Of a stretch of DNA of 64,000 bases, positions 1,469-60,747 are shown piece by piece; positions within the stretch are counted from its first letter, which is position 1, and each line of letters begins with the position of its first letter. Source of the stretch: Propionibacterium sp. (GTDB lineage Bacteria; Actinomycetota; Actinomycetes; Propionibacteriales; Propionibacteriaceae); NCBI GenBank assembly GCA_012517405.1, contig JAAYVB010000026.1, positions 1-64,000 on the forward strand, read 5' to 3'. Both the position numbers and the translations under genes were made by a program. The notes under the pieces were generated by a model, which had not been told where the DNA came from, searched no databases, and saw only the letters and a program-made list of their open reading frames with translations.

Positions 1469-3097
1469 ATGTCAGCTGATCGGCCGGTTGAGGCGGCCCG
1501 TGAAGAAGCGATCGACGCGATCCGCTCGGGCTACACCTTTACCGAACCTGCCATTGATGTCGGTGTGCTGAGTGTGGACGACGAGCCGGTTCCCGATGCG
1601 CGCATCCGCATTCCATTGGCCATGCTGAACCGGCACGGGCTGATCAGCGGGGCGACCGGCACCGGCAAGACCATCACCTTGCAGGTGCTGGCCGAACAGA
1701 TCGCTCGCGCCGGGGTGCCGGTCTTCGCAGCCGACATCAAGGGCGACCTTTCGGGCATGGCCACCGCTGCCGAGCCCACCGAGAAACTGCTCGCACGTAC
1801 CGCGAAGAACGGTCAGGACTGGCGGCCCGCGGCGTCGGCCGTCGAGTTCTACGCACTGGGCGGCCAGGGCAAGGGCACACCGCTGCGGGCCACCATTTCG
1901 AGTTTCGGGCCGATCCTGCTCAGCAAGGTGCTGGAACTGAACGAGACCCAGGAGTCCAGCCTCGGGCTGGTCTTCCACTTCGCCGATCAGGCCGGTCTGC
2001 CCCTGCTGGACCTGCAGGATCTGGTGGCCGTGCTGAAGTATCTCGACTCCGACGAGGGCAAACCGGTGCTCAAGCAGATCGGTGGACTGAGCAGCCAGAC
2101 CGTCGGAGTGATCCTGCGATCGATCGTCAATCTCGAGCAACAGGGCGCCGGCGTCTTCTTCGGCGAGCCCGAGTTCGACACCAACGATCTGCTGCGCACC
2201 ACCGCCGATGGACGCGGTGTGGTCAGCATGCTGGAACTGCCCAATGTGCAGGATCGTCCGGCGCTGTTCTCGACCTTTTTGATGTGGCTGCTCGCCGATC
2301 TGTATCACGATCTGCCCGAGGTGGGCGACGCCGATCGTCCGAAGCTGGTCTTCTTCTTCGACGAGGCGCACCTGCTGTTCAGCGGAGCATCCAAGGCCTT
2401 CGTCCAGCAGATCACCCAGACGGTCCGGCTCATCCGCTCTAAGGGCGTCGGGGTTTTCTTCGTCACGCAAACGCCCAAGGATGTGCCCGGCGATGTGCTG
2501 GCCCAACTCGGCAGCAGGATTGCCCACCAGCTGCGCGCGCACACCCCCGACGACGCCAAAGCGCTGAAGGCTACGGTCAATACCTTCCCGAGATCGAGCT
2601 ACGATCTCGCCGAGCTGCTGACGCAGCTGGGCATCGGGCAGGCCGTCGTGACGGTGATGGACCCGGATGGGGTTCCGACCCCGGTGGCCTGGACGCGGGT
2701 CTTCGCACCCGAGTCGAAGATGGGGCCGACCGACGCCGCGCAGCAGGATCGGATGATCGCGGCGAGCCCGATGATGGCCCGCTACGGCCGGCAGATCAAC
2801 CGGGATTCTGCCTACGAAATGCTGGCCCGCAAGCTGGCCCAAGGCGCTGAGAACGCTCAACCGACGACGTCCGCGCACAACGCCGACCGGACGAACGGGA
2901 TGCCGTTGGTGAGCGCCGGCGTCCAGCCCAAGCAGTCCCAACCTAAGCAGTCCCGGGCCAAGGCCCCGTCGAAGTCGTCGAAGGCTCAGAAGTCGGTCAT
3001 CGAGCAGGTCGCCGACTCGAGCGCATTCAAACAGTTCGCCCGCTCGGCCGGACGCGAAGTCGTCCGCTCGATCTTCGGCACCGCGCGGCGGCGATGA
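1469..3097 (+). CDS. HerA/YjgR-type (DUF853) P-loop ATPase
   Basis: 542 residues. Walker A GATGTGKT is at residues 61-68, and Walker B with the catalytic pair (LVFFFDEAH) is near residue 295. The downstream QTVRLIRSKGVGVFFVTQTPKDVP and LGSRIAHQLRAHT segments are typical of the helicase HerA-like C-terminal family (DUF853, E. coli YjgR). The tail is Lys/Ser/Gln-rich and low in complexity, ending in a basic stretch. The ATG at 1469 is preferred over an in-frame TTG 24 nt upstream because the family starts close to this point. The biological role is not settled for the family; a DNA-translocating or remodelling ATPase is a guess. Its stop overlaps the next start (ATGA). Confidence 0.85.
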   Translation: MSADRPVEAAREEAIDAIRSGYTFTEPAIDVGVLSVDDEPVPDARIRIPLAMLNRHGLISGATGTGKTITLQVLAEQIARAGVPVFAADIKGDLSGMATAAEPTEKLLARTAKNGQDWRPAASAVEFYALGGQGKGTPLRATISSFGPILLSKVLELNETQESSLGLVFHFADQAGLPLLDLQDLVAVLKYLDSDEGKPVLKQIGGLSSQTVGVILRSIVNLEQQGAGVFFGEPEFDTNDLLRTTADGRGVVSMLELPNVQDRPALFSTFLMWLLADLYHDLPEVGDADRPKLVFFFDEAHLLFSGASKAFVQQITQTVRLIRSKGVGVFFVTQTPKDVPGDVLAQLGSRIAHQLRAHTPDDAKALKATVNTFPRSSYDLAELLTQLGIGQAVVTVMDPDGVPTPVAWTRVFAPESKMGPTDAAQQDRMIAASPMMARYGRQINRDSAYEMLARKLAQGAENAQPTTSAHNADRTNGMPLVSAGVQPKQSQPKQSRAKAPSKSSKAQKSVIEQVADSSAFKQFARSAGREVVRSIFGTARRR

Positions 3098-48914: not shown

Positions 48915-49912
48915 TCGGCGACCAGCGGATGCGAATCCAGCAGGTCCAGGCCGAGAGCGCGTGCCAGGTCTCGGGCGACCAGCTGCCCTTTGACACTGTT
49001 GCCGGCGGCGTCCAGCGGAGGCGCGAAGGTACCGAGCCCGCCCTTGCCGGGTGACACGGTCACAATCCCGCCGCCGATGCCGCTCTTGCCGGGCTGGCCG
49101 ACCTCATAGAGCCAGTCGCCCGAGGTCTCATACAGCCCCGCGGTGACCATCACCGCCAGCACGTAGTGGCACAGCTGTTCGTCGATCACCGGCTCGCCGC
49201 TGCTCGGATTGACCCCGCCGTTGGCCAGCGTGGCCCCCATCACAGCAAGATCGCGCGCGGTGACCCTCAAACAGCTCTGCCGGGTGTACAGATCGAGCGC
49301 AAGATCTGGTTCGCAGCCCAGCAATCCGCGGGCGCCGAGCAACTGGACCGCGGCCCGGTTGACCAGGTTGGTGTTCGACGCGCACGAATAGACCTCGTGG
49401 TCGATATCCAGTTCATGGCCTGCGAAGCGGGACAGCCCGTCGGCCAGGCACCGCCACTTCTGCTCGCCCGTTCCGGGCAACAGGCTTGCGGTGGCGATAG
49501 CACCCGGATTGACCATCGGATTCGTCCGGCCATCCGAGCCACGCTCGACAGCGGCCAGCGAGTTGAAGGCCATGCCGGTGGCGTTGACGCCGATGCGGCG
49601 GCGCGTCTCGTCCGGCCCCAAGTGGGCGAGCACCAGAGCGAAGACGAACGGTTTCGCGACGCTCATGATCGGGAACAGCACGTCCGTGTCTCCGGAGGTG
49701 AAGACAGCTCCATCGACCGAGGCCACGCAGATGCCGAACAGATCTGGATCGGCCCTGGCGAGAGCCGGGTATACCTGAGAGGTCTCGCCGTCGGTACAGC
49801 GTCGGTGCCGCTCGTGCGCCTGATCGACCAGTTCGGCGATGCGGGCTCGTCTCGGCAGGTGGCCTGCCGAAACGAACCGCGCAGTGTGGCTGGGGTTGGT
49901 GTGCTGCGTCAC
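48887..49912 (-). CDS. glsA: Glutaminase (serine-dependent, GlsA family)
   Basis: 341 residues from a GTG overlapping the abgT stop. Serine-lysine active site in FPIMSVAKPFVFALVL; FNSLAAVERGSDGRTNPMVNPGAIA, YSCASNTNLVNRA and GKSGIGGGIVTVSPGKGGLG are glutaminase landmarks. It hydrolyses L-glutamine to glutamate and ammonia. About 30 residues longer at the N-terminus than E. coli YbaS. Third gene of the pepA-abgT-glsA operon; its 3' end overlaps the LuxR-type gene by 28 nt in convergent orientation. Confidence 0.93.
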   Translation of the reverse strand: MTQHTNPSHTARFVSAGHLPRRARIAELVDQAHERHRRCTDGETSQVYPALARADPDLFGICVASVDGAVFTSGDTDVLFPIMSVAKPFVFALVLAHLGPDETRRRIGVNATGMAFNSLAAVERGSDGRTNPMVNPGAIATASLLPGTGEQKWRCLADGLSRFAGHELDIDHEVYSCASNTNLVNRAAVQLLGARGLLGCEPDLALDLYTRQSCLRVTARDLAVMGATLANGGVNPSSGEPVIDEQLCHYVLAVMVTAGLYETSGDWLYEVGQPGKSGIGGGIVTVSPGKGGLGTFAPPLDAAGNSVKGQLVARDLARALGLDLLDSHPLVADHKPAGSGG

Positions 49913-51573
49913 GGCACACTCGGCGGGTAGCCCGGCCCGAGCGGGATACCGAGCAGGAACCATGCGATGAACAGCACCGTCCAAGCTGCCAAGACAATGC
50001 CCGAATACGGCAGCATCAGCGCGACCACGGTGCCGATGCCGGACTTCTTCTGGTAGCGCTGGGCCACGGTGACGATGAACGGCAGGTAGACCATCAACGG
50101 AGTCAGTGCGTTGACCGGGGAGTCTGCAACCCGGTAGGCAGCCAGCAGGGTCTGCGGTGCGACGCCGAGCCTCATGAACAGCGGGACGAAGATGGGAGCG
50201 AAGATCGCCCACTTCGGCAGCGAGCCGGGCATGATGAAGTCGAGTAGCACGATGACCAGGATGAACCCGAGCAGCAGCGGGACGGCACCGATGTTGGCCT
50301 GCTCCAGGAGCTCGGCCAGGGATCCGGCGATGACCGGCGGCAGATTCGACCAGTTGAACAAGGCGATGAACTGGCTGATCATCATGAGCATCAGCACCAT
50401 GCCGCCCAGACCGGCGAAGGTCTTGGTGATCGCCTTGATGACATCAGCGCTGCCGCTCATGGTCTTGGCGCCGATGCCGTAGCAGATGCCCGAGACCAAG
50501 AAGGCCAGCATGATGATGAACAGCAGGCTGTCCATGAACGGAGTCTGACCGATGATGTTGCCGGTCTCGGGATCGCGCAGCGGAGCTCCTGGCGGAGCGG
50601 TGATCGCCACCACGATCGCGACCACGGCCAGGAAGCCGAACATCGCCATCCGGCTGCCCTTCTTGTCAGCCTCAGGTGTGATCGAAGCGACCTCTTCGGC
50701 ATGGGCGGCCATTGCCGGGTCCGGATGCCAGGGCCCCAGCCGTGGCTCGACGATCCGCTCGGTGACCAGCGCCGCAACGAAGGCGATGATGAACGAGGAG
50801 GCGAGCATGAACCAGTAGTTGGCAACGATGCTGATCGAGTCGCCACCGGCCAGTTCGATCGACTCGTTGGCGATCTCGGTGATCATGGCGTCGGTGGGCG
50901 TCGGTATCACGTTGACCATGAAGATCGTCGCCACGCCGGCGAATCCCGTGGCCAAGCCGGCTAGTGGGTGGCGTCCGACGCTGGCGAAGGCGGCCGCCGC
51001 CAGGGGTATCAGGATCAGATAGCCGGCGTCCGAAGCGGCCGAGGACAAGACGCCGGTGAGCACCAGGATGAAGGTCAGCGCCCATTTCGGTGCCGCGCCG
51101 ACCAGTTTGCGGATCAGCGAGCCCAGCAGGCCGGACTCCTCGGCGACGCCGGCGCCCATCATCGCCACGAAGGTGACGCCGATGACGGCGAAGCCAGCGA
51201 AGTTGTTGACGAACGACGAGAAGATGAAGCGGATACCGTCGATCGAGATCAGGCTCCTGATCGGAATGGTCTGCTCGACGATCTCCCATTCGTCCGGGTT
51301 GGTGCTCGGTGCTGAGATGCTCGGTTGGGTGCTGTCTTCGTAGTAGTCGTATTCCGCGCCCTGGCTCACCGGGACGGCGATCTCCTCGGTGACACTCACC
51401 CCGGCCAGATGCAGGCCCCACGAGAGCGCAATCACCAGCAGGATCAGGTAGCAGAACATCAGAGCCGGATGCGGAACCTTGTTGCCGATCCGTTCGACCG
51501 CGCCGAGGATGCCCTTCTGGGTGCCCTCCTCGACTTCGTCCACGGTGGAGGCCTCGTTGTCTGGTTTGCTCAT
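49909..51573 (-). CDS. AbgT-family transporter
   Basis: 554 residues, about 11 helices. VPHPALMFCYLILLVIALSWGLHLAGVSVT and the helical-hairpin motifs VLSSAASDAGYLILIPLAAAAFASVGRHPLAGLATGFAGVATIFMVNVIPTPTDAM are diagnostic for AbgT (p-aminobenzoyl-glutamate / sulfonamide transporter). It lies 13 nt after pepA and overlaps glsA by GTGA. The tie to a peptidase and a glutaminase points to a glutamyl- or glutamine-containing substrate. Confidence 0.93.
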   Translation of the reverse strand: MSKPDNEASTVDEVEEGTQKGILGAVERIGNKVPHPALMFCYLILLVIALSWGLHLAGVSVTEEIAVPVSQGAEYDYYEDSTQPSISAPSTNPDEWEIVEQTIPIRSLISIDGIRFIFSSFVNNFAGFAVIGVTFVAMMGAGVAEESGLLGSLIRKLVGAAPKWALTFILVLTGVLSSAASDAGYLILIPLAAAAFASVGRHPLAGLATGFAGVATIFMVNVIPTPTDAMITEIANESIELAGGDSISIVANYWFMLASSFIIAFVAALVTERIVEPRLGPWHPDPAMAAHAEEVASITPEADKKGSRMAMFGFLAVVAIVVAITAPPGAPLRDPETGNIIGQTPFMDSLLFIIMLAFLVSGICYGIGAKTMSGSADVIKAITKTFAGLGGMVLMLMMISQFIALFNWSNLPPVIAGSLAELLEQANIGAVPLLLGFILVIVLLDFIMPGSLPKWAIFAPIFVPLFMRLGVAPQTLLAAYRVADSPVNALTPLMVYLPFIVTVAQRYQKKSGIGTVVALMLPYSGIVLAAWTVLFIAWFLLGIPLGPGYPPSVP

Positions 51574-51586
51574 CTCGATCCGCCGA

Positions 51587-53074
51587 TCATGCCTTGAAGT
51601 TCAGCGCGAGGTCGATCAGCAACCGCGTGCCGAACCCGGTGGTGCCGTGGTTCAGCCACTTCTTGGCGGCGGCCGACTGCGCGGTGCCCGCGATATCGAT
51701 GTGTGCCCAGGGCTTGCCCCCGACGAACTCCGCCAGGAACAGCGCGGCGGTGATGCTGCCCGCGTTCACCCCGCCCACGTTGCGCAGGTCGGCGACCGGC
51801 GAGTTGAGTTCCCCACGATAGCGGCTGGCCAGCGGCAGCTCCCAGACCTGTTCGTCCACCCGCTCGGCGGAGGCCTTGACCTGGTCGAGCAGCGCCTCGT
51901 TGTTGCCGAGGACGGCGGCGATCTCGGTGCCCAGCGCACGCATGGCGGCACCCGTGAGAGTTGCGACATCGACGATGGCGTCGACCGGCTCCTCGGTGGC
52001 CAGCACGAGAGCATCGGCCATCACCATGCGTCCTTCGGCGTCGGTGTTGATCACTTCAACGGTCTTGCCGCCACGCATGACGACAATGTCGCCCAACCGC
52101 AGCGCCGAACCCGACGGCATGTTGTCGGTGCACATCAGATAGCCGGTGACCTGGGACTCGCAGCCTAGGTCGCGTAGTGCAGTCATCGCGCCGAAGATGG
52201 CGCCGGCACCGGTCATGTCGTTCTTCATCGTGGCGTGAATCTCGTCGCCGGGCTTGAGCGCCAGGCCGCCCGCGTCGTACATGATGCCCTTGCCGACCAG
52301 GGTCAGCAAGCCGGTGGGCTCGCCCTCGGGGCGGTAGATCAACTTGATCATCGCGGGCGGCTCAGTGCTGCCGAGATTGATGCCGAGCAGACCGCCGCAG
52401 CCCAACTCGATCAGCGCCTGCTCGTCGAAGATCTCGACTTCAAGACCGGCTTGCGGCCCCAGCTCGGCGGCGAGATCGGCGAACTTCGTGGCGGTCAGAA
52501 TGCCGCCGGGGGTGCCCGCCAGATCGCGGGTCAGCTTGGCAGCCTTGACGATGATCTTGCCGCGGGACGCGCCCGCCTCGGCGTCCGCGATGGCGTCTTC
52601 GGCCGCGATCAGGCCGAGAGCGGCCAGCTTGGCTTCCGGACCGTCCTCACCGATGCGATAGGCGTACCGGGCCAGCGAGACACCTTCGACAACCGCAGCA
52701 GCTGCGTCCGCAATCGGCACCAATGTGCTGCTGGGTAGGACGAACGCCAGCCGGTCCTGCGAAGGCACTGCGCGGGCGAGATAAGAGCCGAGGTCGCGCA
52801 ATACGGTAGTGTTCACGGCATCCGCGTCACCACCACCAACCAGCACGTCCAGTGGGCCATCGGCGCTTGTCAAGACCAGTGTCTCGCCGACCTTGGCAGT
52901 GAACCCCAGGGCTGCTGCACGCTCGGCGGAGATGCCGGTGCCGGCAGGAGGGGTCTGTCCGACGAAAACGACATAGCCGATCGCGCCCGCGTCATCCGGG
53001 GCAGCGGTCCCGGCGCTGATCTGAGGATCACGTGTGGGAAGGGCGAAGGGAGGATAGGGAGCAGCGTGAGTCAT
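51587..53074 (-). CDS. pepA: Leucyl aminopeptidase, M17 family
   Basis: 495 residues from the ATG at 53074, placed by the GGAAG ribosome site. Two-zinc catalytic domain with LVGKGIMYDAGGLALKPGDEIHATMKNDMTGAG (metal Lys/Asp) and the signature NTDAEGRMVMADAL. The N-terminal macro-like domain is typical of M17. It releases N-terminal residues from peptides. The usual signature YDSGG/FDSGG reads YDAGG here: Ser is replaced by Ala next to the metal-site Lys motif. First gene of the operon with abgT and glsA. Confidence 0.93.
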   Translation of the reverse strand: MTHAAPYPPFALPTRDPQISAGTAAPDDAGAIGYVVFVGQTPPAGTGISAERAAALGFTAKVGETLVLTSADGPLDVLVGGGDADAVNTTVLRDLGSYLARAVPSQDRLAFVLPSSTLVPIADAAAAVVEGVSLARYAYRIGEDGPEAKLAALGLIAAEDAIADAEAGASRGKIIVKAAKLTRDLAGTPGGILTATKFADLAAELGPQAGLEVEIFDEQALIELGCGGLLGINLGSTEPPAMIKLIYRPEGEPTGLLTLVGKGIMYDAGGLALKPGDEIHATMKNDMTGAGAIFGAMTALRDLGCESQVTGYLMCTDNMPSGSALRLGDIVVMRGGKTVEVINTDAEGRMVMADALVLATEEPVDAIVDVATLTGAAMRALGTEIAAVLGNNEALLDQVKASAERVDEQVWELPLASRYRGELNSPVADLRNVGGVNAGSITAALFLAEFVGGKPWAHIDIAGTAQSAAAKKWLNHGTTGFGTRLLIDLALNFKA

Positions 53075-53202
53075 GGTTTCTTCCTTCTTTGGCGCTCTGG
53101 AGGGACAAGTTCGCTCGTCCGCCATTCTTGCGTCTACACAGGACCCGGATATCCCCCGTCAGGGGTAGTCCGCGGGTGACTACAAAGGGCCAAGATGCTA
53201 TC

Positions 53203-57201: not shown

Positions 57202-57427
57202 GACGACGAGGCTACGGCTTCTGGCCGGCCCGGTGGGCGCATTGGTTGTGCCTACTCGAGCAATCCCGCCGAGAGCCCGCCCTGCGGGTGGGGCAATGCG
57301 TACTACCGGGCACCGCTAGCGGGATTCGGGAAACGGGACGCTATTTGAAACGGGGATTCAAAATGAGAAAGATCCGGGCGATCGTCGCCACGAAATAAGG
57401 CCTACCGCTGATCCAGTTGCCCTGAGG

Positions 57428-59011
57428 TCACCCCACCAGGACGAGCATCTGGGCCAACAGGATCTTCGCGACCATCGCCGTGGAATAGACCAGCGCATAG
57501 CCGAGCGAAACCCGGGTATCGAAGCCGGTGCGGGTGTTGGCGAATGCCAGCACCGCGGGCTGGGTGTGGCCGCCGCCGAGCTGACCCGCGAGCTGGATCC
57601 AGCCGGTCTTGTGCAGCCTGCCGGCGACCAGGAACGCCACGGCAGTGGTCGTGGTGATCGCAAAGCCCAGCACTGCGGCCTTCCAGCCCAGGTTCGACGT
57701 CATCGCGGCGCCGAATTGCAGACCGGCCTTCGTCCCCGCGTACGCCAGGAAGACCAGCATGCCGAGTGCGGACAGTGAGTTGGCAGCGGCACTCGGCATC
57801 GAGACGGGCAGGCGTCCGATATGGCCGAGCCTGCCGAAGACCAGCCCGGTGAGCAGCGTGCCGGCCGCCAGCCCCAGTGTGAAGCTGCCGGTGGGCAGCG
57901 GGATGGGGATGATGCCGATGACGATGCCGATCACCAGGCCAAGTGCCAGGCCGGAGGGGTTGATGTCGGAGAAGCCACGTTCGGAATCGCCGAGGTGGGC
58001 GCGCAGCGGTGCCAGCTGGTCTCTGGGCGCGACGACCCGCGGCCGATCGCCCATTTGGACGACGAAGTCGGGGCTGGCGATCATGTCGACGTCTCCGCGC
58101 CGGACGCGGGAGACATGCGCCCCGAATTGCTCGGCGAGACCGAGTTCGTCGATGCGACGTCCGGCGAGTTTGGCCGATGACAGCGTCGCGCGCACGGAGT
58201 CGAGATAGGTGCGGTCGCTGATGATGTCGACCGACGAGGCGTGGCCGAGCTTGCCGGTCACTGCGGCGAGGGCGTCGTGCGGGCCGATGACGGAGACCAG
58301 GTCGCCCTTGTGCAGCCTCTCGTCCGGGGCGGCAACGACAGTCGGCTCATTCTCGTGCTGGACGCGTGAGACAGTGACCGAACCTGGACTGTGCTCCAGC
58401 AGCTCGGCCACGGTGAGATCGGAGTCGTCGTCCACCCGGATGGTGCGCTGTTCCAGCGGCGGTGCGGTGGCTGATTTCGATTCGCGATTGCCCATCTGGA
58501 TGGCCCAGGCGGCAGCGAGCATCATGCCGATGACGCCCCACAGATAGCTGATCGAGTATCCGACGGCCGGAAGCTCGGCGTCGCCGGCGGCTTGGCTGGC
58601 CGCGGCCAGCGAGGGTGTGTTGTTGAGCGCGCCCGCGAATGTTCCGGCTATCAGAGGATTGGGTAACCCGAGGATGCGTCCGAGGCCGCCGGCTACCAGG
58701 GCTGCCAACGCGAGGCATGCCACGGTGCTCAGCATCACCGGCCAGCCCCGGCGCAGCGAGCCGAAGAAGTTCGGCCCGGAGATGATGCCCACCGTGTAGG
58801 TGAAGATGATGAGACCGAAACTGCCGAGCACTTCGGGGATGGTCAACTCCACTCCGTTGCTCACACCCCAGGCGGTCAATCCGATGGCGGTGAACAGCAC
58901 CGCCGCAGGTCCGAGCGTGGCGCCGGCGATCTTGATCTGGCCGAGCAGCGAGCCCACCACCACCAGCAGGGTGAGAAGAAGCAATGGACAAGACTCGAGA
59001 ATCTCGAACAT
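57428..59011 (-). CDS. AspT/YidE-YbjL family transporter
   Basis: 527 residues. Two homologous five-helix AspT-YidE-YbjL halves (LLLTLLVVVGSLLGQIKIAGATLGPAAVLFTAIGLTAW...; IPLPTGSFTLGLAAGTLLTGLVFGRLG...) flank a cytoplasmic region with two TrkA_C/RCK-C domains (about 205-285 and 288-360). AspT exchanges aspartate for alanine; the substrates of other members are unknown. GGAGG lies 6 nt before the ATG. The leader carries a cobalamin riboswitch (59128-59290), so expression is expected to fall when B12 is plentiful. That ties the carrier to cobalamin, cobalt, a B12-dependent pathway or its B12-free alternative. Confidence 0.92.
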   Translation of the reverse strand: MFEILESCPLLLLTLLVVVGSLLGQIKIAGATLGPAAVLFTAIGLTAWGVSNGVELTIPEVLGSFGLIIFTYTVGIISGPNFFGSLRRGWPVMLSTVACLALAALVAGGLGRILGLPNPLIAGTFAGALNNTPSLAAASQAAGDAELPAVGYSISYLWGVIGMMLAAAWAIQMGNRESKSATAPPLEQRTIRVDDDSDLTVAELLEHSPGSVTVSRVQHENEPTVVAAPDERLHKGDLVSVIGPHDALAAVTGKLGHASSVDIISDRTYLDSVRATLSSAKLAGRRIDELGLAEQFGAHVSRVRRGDVDMIASPDFVVQMGDRPRVVAPRDQLAPLRAHLGDSERGFSDINPSGLALGLVIGIVIGIIPIPLPTGSFTLGLAAGTLLTGLVFGRLGHIGRLPVSMPSAAANSLSALGMLVFLAYAGTKAGLQFGAAMTSNLGWKAAVLGFAITTTTAVAFLVAGRLHKTGWIQLAGQLGGGHTQPAVLAFANTRTGFDTRVSLGYALVYSTAMVAKILLAQMLVLVG

Positions 59012-59034
59012 CGATGGCCTCCGGTGTCCAGGTT

Positions 59035-59109
59035 CTAGTGATCAGCGAGATCGAGGAAGGTGGCGGGTGTGGGTGAAGAAAGAGGTGCGGGGGATGGCGT
59101 CGGGTTCAT
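59035..59109 (-). CDS. Short leader ORF between riboswitch and transporter
   Basis: 24 codons plus TAG, beginning MNPTPSPAP and ending DLADH. An AGAGGAA ribosome site (59115-59121 on the complement) lies 5 nt before the ATG, better than many genes here. The peptide is Pro/Ser/Thr-rich with no recognised motif. It starts about 20 nt past the riboswitch core and ends 23 nt before the transporter start, so it may couple riboswitch control to translation, or it may be chance. Confidence 0.4.
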   Translation of the reverse strand: MNPTPSPAPLSSPTPATFLDLADH

Positions 59110-59127
59110 AAGGGTTCCTCTTGCTCG

Positions 59128-59290
59128 AAGGACGACCGAGGCAGCAGGCGGTCTGACTCATCGTCGGTTCTCGACGCTTCACAGTTGCGGCACAGTGTGG
59201 TGTCTCACCACGTTTCCCTGCTTTGGCCCGGGATCCGAACCCCGGTGCCTCGTGCTCCGGTTGCCCGGTGCGAGTTGAACTATACGGCCA
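59128..59290 (-). promoter_or_regulatory. Cobalamin (adenosylcobalamin) riboswitch
   Basis: On the - strand the conserved core appears in order: AAAGCAGGGAAACGTGGTG (59207-59225 on the complement), CCGCAACTGTGAAG (59177-59190), and GATGAGTCAGACCGCC (about 59147-59162). These match the RF00174-type pattern AA..AGGGAA..GGTG, CCGCAACTGT, and AGTCAG.A/CC. The P6-like stem GTGGTG/CACCAC and a GC stem near the 5' end are visible. The segment between CTGTGAAG and GAGTCAG is short, as in compact variants lacking the long P10-P11 arm. It lies about 117 nt upstream of the AspT-type gene. Confidence 0.85.
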
Positions 59291-59345
59291 ACAATCGGGC
59301 TCGGGCTAGTGCTTATCCGCAAATCAGGACGGATACTGGCCGCCG

Positions 59346-60647
59346 TCAGGTCGCCGGCGTCCCTGTGGTGATGGCTAGCCGCTCGAGCGCGCTCGCCTCG
59401 TGCTGGTGTCCGAGGGTCTCATATCCGATCACGACGACGAACGGTGCCGCAGCCACCGCCAGCAGCGCGACGCCCAACGATGCGCCGAGGGCCACGAGCG
59501 CCACTGCAAGGATCAGGAAGGCCAGCGTCCCAGCAACGAGCGCGTAATGGAAGCGGTCGATCTCGCGGACGAGAACCGAGTAGAGGACGAAGACGGCCAC
59601 CACGAACACGAAGACCGAAACCACCGTCGCGACCAAGGCCGAAACCGGGCCGATTGCGGCGCCCCCCTCGGTGACGTAAGCGGCAAGGTGCAACGCCGCA
59701 CCCATCGCAACGATCGAGGTGAAGACCAACACGTGGAAGTAGCTCCAGAACTTGCCCAGCTGGCGGCGGCGCTCGAGGACGAACGCAGACGGCACGATGA
59801 AATAGACCCACCATGACCCCAGCGTCAGTGCAGTTCCGGCGACCACGATCAGCGCCGCTTCGGCGCTCCAGCCGTTGCGCTCGACCACCGCTGAGACCGC
59901 CGCAATCGTGCCGGACACGGCTTCACCGAGGGCGATGATGGCCAGCAAACCGAACCGTTCGGCGACATGATGTGCGTGCCAGGGTATGCCACCCCTCAGG
60001 CGGTCAACGGCGATAGGAGCGCCGAGGTCCGCTGCCAACACGAGGACCGGCGCGAACGGGCTCCAGGGGGCATCGCGTAGCGCGAGGAGCGTAATCCAGC
60101 CAACCTGTGCCAGAAAGACACTGATCGCCATCGTCACAGTCGCCCGTCGCCGCAGCGGATCCTGCCGGGCCGCGCGGAGCCATTGGGCAACCAGTGCAAC
60201 TCGGATGGCCACGTAGCCAATGACCATCAGGTCGTTACCGGCTGTTGTCGCCTCATCGATCGAGCGGAACATCGGCGCCAAGCCGAGGGCGAGCACCAGG
60301 GCACCGACCATTTCTGCCATCGTCAACAGCCGACACAGCCAGTCATCAGTGTCATATGCCGACGCGAACCATGTGCAGTTGAGCCACGCCCAGTACAAGG
60401 CGAACATCGCAATCCCGAGCCCGCCCAGCGCGGTCCCCCAATGCGCCTCGGCAGCGTAGTGCGACGCCTGGTCCGCTGCCATGCTGAACCCGGCAACGAA
60501 CGTCAGGTCGAACAGTAGTTCCAGCGGGGTCGCGACGCGATTCCGCTCCAGGGGATCGCGCCCACGCATCGGCCGCAGCCCGTGGCTCAAGATGGCTGGC
60601 GTCGGCACAACGTGGACGCCGACGTCGTCTGCCTGGTCGGGTTCCAT
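59346..60647 (-). CDS. Low-temperature-requirement protein A family (LtrA)
   Basis: 433 residues from the ATG at 60647, set by AGAGGA 7 nt upstream. About 12 membrane helices; LtrA marks are ATPLELLFDLTFVAGFSMAADQ, HHVAERFGLLAIIALGEAVSGT and the Trp-rich WWVYFIVPSAFVLERRRQ. LtrA was named for Listeria growth in the cold; the biochemical activity is unknown. Its end is 56 nt from the riboswitch region, and a strong hairpin separates it from the PTS gene upstream. Confidence 0.9.
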   Translation of the reverse strand: MEPDQADDVGVHVVPTPAILSHGLRPMRGRDPLERNRVATPLELLFDLTFVAGFSMAADQASHYAAEAHWGTALGGLGIAMFALYWAWLNCTWFASAYDTDDWLCRLLTMAEMVGALVLALGLAPMFRSIDEATTAGNDLMVIGYVAIRVALVAQWLRAARQDPLRRRATVTMAISVFLAQVGWITLLALRDAPWSPFAPVLVLAADLGAPIAVDRLRGGIPWHAHHVAERFGLLAIIALGEAVSGTIAAVSAVVERNGWSAEAALIVVAGTALTLGSWWVYFIVPSAFVLERRRQLGKFWSYFHVLVFTSIVAMGAALHLAAYVTEGGAAIGPVSALVATVVSVFVFVVAVFVLYSVLVREIDRFHYALVAGTLAFLILAVALVALGASLGVALLAVAAAPFVVVIGYETLGHQHEASALERLAITTGTPAT

Positions 60648-60705
60648 CGCTTTCCTCTGGGTGGCTTGTCGGGGATACTGCGCGGTCGTGGGGTTGCCGG
60701 CCCGT

Positions 60706-60747
60706 GCAGGTGGGTCGTCGCGGTTCTTCACCCGGCGACCCACCTGC
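60706..60747. terminator. Perfect 12-bp hairpin after the PTS gene
   Basis: GCAGGTGGGTCG (60706-60717) pairs with CGACCCACCTGC (60736-60747) around an 18-nt loop, 9 nt beyond the EIIA stop and upstream of ltrA on the same strand. No U-tract. Confidence 0.75.

Follow-up and report, generated by a model that had tools for sequence, protein, structure and literature searches.

The window, the whole stretch of 64,000 nucleotides from Propionibacterium sp. analysed here, carries a putative cobalamin riboswitch followed by a short upstream open reading frame (uORF) and a gene for a carrier of the AspT/YidE/YbjL family. The features of the locus, with the evidence for each, are as follows.

59279..59284, minus strand: TATAGT, a possible -10 promoter element (tentative; read from the sequence)
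59129..59261, minus strand: putative cobalamin riboswitch aptamer, RF00174 match (RF00174, our covariance model R1, covariation)
59137-59252, minus strand: conserved riboswitch core as modelled by R1 (R1 covariance model)
59113..59137, minus strand: predicted P13-like hairpin over the Shine-Dalgarno sequence of the uORF (GAGG, 59117-59120; local folding)
59035..59109, minus strand: uORF MNPTPSPAPLSSPTPATFLDLADH, 24 aa, proline-rich and C-rich (ORF coordinates)
59018..59022, minus strand: Shine-Dalgarno sequence of the carrier, GGAGG, 3' of the uORF stop (read from the sequence)
57428..59011, minus strand: AspT/YidE/YbjL-family carrier, 527 aa, proposed C4-dicarboxylate (succinate) exporter (Pfam, TIGR01625)

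A cobalamin riboswitch had been read at this position in the earlier note from three sequence motifs, which are present on the minus strand of the leader in the order given there, and an Infernal search with RF00174 had been proposed as a check. The outcome of that search is mixed. At the gathering threshold (31.5 bits for RF00174) Rfam returned no match in the window; at a relaxed threshold the leader matched RF00174 with a significant E-value of 1.1e-4 for a 551-base stretch, but with a score of 26.0 bits, below the gathering cut-off. The alignment spans model positions 1-189 of 189, and RF00174 was the sole Rfam family reported in the leader at this threshold. Across the window's own genome (G000, 3.17 Mb) the match has an E-value of 1.5e-4 and is one of three to RF00174.

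Independently of Rfam, a covariance model (R1) was built from the leaders of only two orthologues, in genomes G086 (same genus as the window) and G077 (Acidipropionibacterium), with the window sequence excluded. Over the 64 kb, R1 located 59137-59252 on the minus strand with a score of 124.1 bits and an E-value of 4.4e-25, all modelled pairs being standard; the runner-up scored 15.6 bits. In an alignment of four homologues, 95% of pair cells hold standard pairs, compared with 40-47% in slid controls, and two-sided, compensatory changes occur at five pairs, three of them in one hairpin, compared with zero to two in slid-partner controls; as this test comprises only four sequences in an alignment fitted to the model, it is weighed only together with the other evidence. 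Free folding of the leader did not recover the aptamer, and its energy was no better than that of shuffled sequences. A chance motif match was considered and rejected on the R1 score and the compensatory pairs. All three intact leaders score below the RF00174 cut-off, with 26.0 bits for the window, 22.3 for G086 and 29.3 for G077, and values so uniformly low indicate a trait of the subtype itself.

On its sequence features, then, the window element is called as a subtype of the cobalamin riboswitch on the combined evidence, and not on the gathering cut-off. It shares with RF00174 (clan CL00101) a match over the whole model, the core CCGCAACTGTGA, a B12-box-like AGTCAGACCGCC and covarying helices; it differs from it in being compact, at 133-136 nt against 189 model positions, and in its score below the gathering cut-off. 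The leader RNA is predicted to bind B12. Upstream of the aptamer, TAGCGT is found in G086 and G077 at a distance similar to that of TATAGT in the window; a sigma-70 scan did not find a full promoter. The possibility that the window is contaminant DNA was rejected, much of the contig being at least 93% identical, and in the same order, in the complete genome G039 of the same species.

The gene downstream had been named as an AspT-family carrier, and this is supported by Pfam and by TIGR01625, with the refinement that the 24-residue uORF stands between riboswitch and carrier. The protein has two stretches each of PF06826 (Asp-Al_Ex) and PF02080 (TrkA_C) and shows the hallmark of the family, a duplicated membrane domain with TrkA_C domains between. 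It passes the AspT/YidE/YbjL duplication model TIGR01625 (143.8 bits against a cut-off of 71.95) and fails the aspartate:alanine antiporter equivalog TIGR03802 (159.5 bits against 546.95), and it is far below the equivalog cut-offs of other named members of the family too. Solved AspT chains match it at E 2e-10. In the alignment, isoleucine occupies the position of AspT Arg76, a residue to which PMC9527358, citing its reference 12, ascribes a part in substrate transport; the absence of this arginine does not show specificity for succinate. The family (AAEx, TC 2.A.81) includes the succinate exporter SucE1 of Corynebacterium glutamicum, whose function is also the one proposed for the window carrier, as well as the founder AspT, which takes aspartate in and alanine out, and the characterised members named in PMC9527358 transport small organic or amino acids (PMC9527358). 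Identity to an approximate SucE1 query is 33-34%, and other clades of the family are similar in this respect.

Downstream of the aptamer, the predicted P13-like hairpin (59113..59137) overlaps the 3' strand of P1; the energies of this hairpin in the window, G086 and G077 are no better than those of shuffled sequences. A short hairpin, its loop reading CGAGCA, lies over the carrier's own Shine-Dalgarno sequence in G086 and G077; in the window the equivalent hairpin covers that of the uORF and not that of the carrier. The uORF, which among the riboswitch-carrier leaders occurs in the window only, is a possible regulatory leader peptide or Rho-loading segment. Its 75 nt contain 36 C and 9 G, a C skew that places them in the top 0.2% of the strand, as expected for a Rho loading site, and no intrinsic terminator was found between riboswitch and carrier in the window.

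The arrangement resembles that of ppe2 in Mycobacterium tuberculosis, where a B12 OFF-switch operates via a uORF; both have a proline-rich uORF between riboswitch and gene, with the Shine-Dalgarno sequence of the uORF in a masking hairpin, in the window a predicted one (PMC11260477 for ppe2). Whereas the ppe2 gene overlaps with the uORF and lacks its own Shine-Dalgarno sequence (PMC11260477), the window carrier has its own, the uORF stop and the carrier start are 24 nt apart overall, and the window case is known from sequence alone. At an Mbox of M. tuberculosis, uORF control and Rho-dependent termination are reported to act together (PMC12810186). The direction of control, with genes turned down by B12, would be that of the riboswitch class by analogy. 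With plentiful B12 the aptamer would fold around its ligand and the hairpin behind it would mask the ribosome-binding site, so that no carrier would be made; with scarce B12 the site would be free and the carrier would be produced. Since the masked site in the window belongs to the uORF, control of the carrier there probably passes, by analogy, through translation of the uORF, either by coupling or by Rho-dependent termination on the C-rich untranslated RNA.

We searched 198 Propionibacteriaceae genomes for carriers of the window's clade (at least 62% identity) and found seven, the other six being 62-72% identical to that of the window. The riboswitch lies directly before the carrier in three of the seven (G000, G086 and G077), all draft genomes, and these are the only three intact instances. 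The Micropruina genome G073 has a doubtful remnant (R1, 20 bits, E 0.12), and no riboswitch was found at the clade carriers of G097, G114 and G099. Wider homologues at about 43-50% identity (Microbacterium, Gordonia, Buchananella and Rarobacter) gave no R1 match, and the Rfam scan of more distant carriers in the Propionibacteriaceae listed no cobalamin hit.

The genes around the carrier differ between these genomes. In G086 and G077 the next gene after the carrier, on the same strand, encodes a full-length pyruvate carboxylase (1659 and 1633 bits, respectively, against a cut-off of 965); it starts 78 nt after the carrier stop in G086 and about 140 nt after it in G077. Hairpins lie between the two genes, one of which in G086 was called terminator-like, and co-transcription is therefore uncertain. 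In the window pyruvate carboxylase is not linked to the carrier, and no full-length copy was found in G000. Divergent from the carrier in G077 lies an L-lactate dehydrogenase gene whose product exceeds the TIGR01771 cut-off and which has an ordinary cobalamin riboswitch of its own (84 bits; L126 2585-2769). In G047, also Acidipropionibacterium, the riboswitch of lactate dehydrogenase is kept (88.5 bits; L127 2616-2797), and the carrier side reads in order as a riboswitch relic, the last codons of a lost carrier (a 3' relic) and pyruvate carboxylase; the riboswitch relic scores 82 bits with R1, has broken pairs and is invisible to Rfam at E up to 1. The arrangement in G077 and the relics in G047 together imply that the order lactate dehydrogenase - riboswitch / riboswitch - carrier - pyruvate carboxylase predates both genomes. 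These two genomes account for the only cobalamin riboswitches among 20 lactate dehydrogenase loci scanned with Rfam, and pyruvate carboxylase loci of other genera, scanned with R1 only, gave no convincing match. In G047, pyruvate carboxylase is itself followed on the same strand by a MetE-like ORF (L195 16047-17297), by eye a B12-independent methionine synthase.

In G039, of the same species as the window, a deletion that begins just ahead of the riboswitch has removed it together with all of the carrier gene except the last 56 nt. Its scar (L111; G039:C1 about 1729848-1730021) aligns with window positions 57380-57483 and 59264-59331, with flanks that are 96% and 88% identical and meet within 2 nt; most of the neighbouring ORF (59346-60743) is gone as well. 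From this scar, the switch was very probably present in the ancestor of the species and lost in the line with the B12 cluster described below. Elsewhere in the window, a block at 49574-53120, which holds genes for an AbgT-family transporter and a leucyl aminopeptidase-like protein, is missing at the same place in G039, between flanks of 93% identity. The earlier note had suggested looking for the element upstream of orthologous genes; it is kept at three of the seven clade carriers, and relics or a deletion scar are found elsewhere.

Such losses bear on the reading that the window riboswitch is itself a decaying relic with no regulatory effect, the carrier being constitutive or under another signal. 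The relics and the deletion in close relatives, the sub-threshold Rfam score and the uORF interposed before the carrier start would all suit decay, but the window element, at 124 bits and with every modelled pair standard, contrasts with the broken 82-bit relic of G047, and the leaders of G086 and G077 score equally low on RF00174 (22.3 and 29.3 bits). We therefore regard decay in the window as improbable.

The B12 cluster of G039 encodes two GATase_3 proteins, interpreted as a cobyrinate diamide synthase and a cobyric acid synthase, together with cbiM-, cbiN-, cbiQ- and cbiO-like genes (by eye). CobB, CobQ and a cluster of this type were not recognisable in G000, which retains an orphan cbiC and one other stretch similar to the G039 cluster. 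The CbiC (precorrin-8X methylmutase) of G000 lies at L113 5628-6296 (G000:C21); G039 has that copy and a second in its B12 cluster. Matches to CbiC and CobQ are absent from G086 and present in G077, which combines these B12 synthesis genes with a retained switch, so that the anti-correlation of B12 synthesis and switch is suggestive but no rule. Methylmalonyl-CoA mutase genes were found in all ten genomes tested (G000 and nine others).

G000 also has a separate, riboswitch-headed BtuFCD-like system (named by eye). The third cobalamin riboswitch of this genome (30.6 bits; L071 about 2892-3041, minus strand, G000:C41) precedes the genes of an ABC-type ATPase and of a membrane protein. Elsewhere in the genus, cobalamin riboswitches head operons for ABC transporters of the peptide/nickel type, as judged by eye (L188 5121-6907, L190 1545-3393 and L192 1931-3718).

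For the substrate, the earlier note had offered three candidates: cobalt chelates, a precursor of corrinoids, and a metabolite from a pathway that depends on B12. Were the cargo a corrinoid, one of its precursors or chelated cobalt, the riboswitch would be an ordinary feedback on B12 supply, which is the role of most cobalamin riboswitch targets (PMC9600381). The neighbouring genes, pyruvate carboxylase and lactate dehydrogenase, argue against this, as do the separate BtuFCD-like set of G000, its want of recognisable CobB and CobQ, and the small organic or amino acids carried by the characterised family members; we consider such a substrate very unlikely, and the first two suggestions are left unsupported, with no cobalt or corrinoid genes among the partners. 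The third fits best, because the partner genes are those for pyruvate carboxylase and L-lactate dehydrogenase.

Propionibacteria form propionate via succinate and the B12-dependent methylmalonyl-CoA mutase, and methylmalonyl-CoA gives its carboxyl group to pyruvate to yield oxaloacetate. Without B12 the cycle halts at succinate, and oxaloacetate needs another source. B12 limitation turns propionate makers into succinate makers, an effect attributable simply to the idle mutase. Bacteroides thetaiotaomicron starved of B12 makes succinate and no propionate (PMC10881866), and propionate production in Xylanibacter is cobalamin-dependent (PMC11575231).

With moderate confidence, we favour the reading that the leader is a B12 OFF-switch on a fermentation bypass, in which the carrier most likely exports succinate or a close C4-dicarboxylate; both the substrate and the outward direction are drawn by analogy. 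When B12 is scarce the mutase would stop, succinate would no longer proceed to propionate, and the transfer of carboxyl groups from methylmalonyl-CoA to pyruvate would end. The carrier would then excrete succinate, or a closely related C4-dicarboxylate, as the alternative end product, pyruvate carboxylase in the unit of the two relatives would restore the supply of oxaloacetate, and lactate dehydrogenase in G077, under its own B12 riboswitch, would provide a second electron sink. A carrier of the SucE1 family, a pyruvate carboxylase and a lactate dehydrogenase are what a cell fermenting to succinate and lactate needs, which supports this reading. The broader proposal is that a C4-dicarboxylate exporter, pyruvate carboxylase and lactate dehydrogenase are all under B12 OFF-switches, which together would turn fermentation away from propionate and towards succinate and lactate whenever the B12-dependent mutase is idle; we hold its chances to be about even.

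The same switch logic would serve a carrier whose main task is the uptake of aspartate against alanine or succinate, with no net export of succinate. Aspartate would give B12-starved cells a source of oxaloacetate and fumarate in place of the lost transcarboxylase route; uptake of aspartate with release of alanine is the activity of the founder AspT (PMC9527358), and linkage to pyruvate carboxylase also suits oxaloacetate supply. Against it stand the wide shortfall of the carrier on TIGR03802 and the replacement of Arg76 by isoleucine, and we judge aspartate import to be unlikely, if worth keeping in view beside succinate export.

Neither the aptamer class nor the carrier family is new, and the logic of B12-independent alternatives is likewise established. 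In keeping with the earlier note, which was aware of no established AspT-family target, we found no report, among the open-access papers searched, in which an AspT-family carrier, a unit including pyruvate carboxylase, or lactate dehydrogenase is the target of a cobalamin riboswitch; subscription papers were outside the scope of the search. We also know of no earlier riboswitch set that controls which fermentation product is excreted. Unlike most known cobalamin riboswitch targets, the one here is neither a B12 supply gene nor an isoenzyme. The logic by which a B12-independent alternative is made only without B12 is shared with the metE riboswitch (PMC11260477, M. tuberculosis), but there the alternative is an isoenzyme, while here it would be a fermentation end-product route. 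Within the same bacterial family, a cobalamin riboswitch has been predicted upstream of mutA in P. freudenreichii (PMC5644110); it likewise ties a B12 riboswitch to the propionate pathway, but it heads the B12-dependent enzyme, whereas the riboswitches described here would head the bypass (carrier, pyruvate carboxylase and lactate dehydrogenase).

The proposal offers a testable function for an uncharacterised clade of carriers and would add this carrier, pyruvate carboxylase and lactate dehydrogenase to the proposed targets of B12 riboswitches. The same-species pair forms a natural comparison, G000 having the switch without the B12 cluster and G039 the reverse. If the proposal is true, these elements would be the first set of riboswitches known to us to choose the excreted fermentation product, with relevance to propionate and succinate production and to B12 exchange in reactors, and the shift to succinate at low B12 would also be a regulated programme, beyond the effect of an idle mutase.
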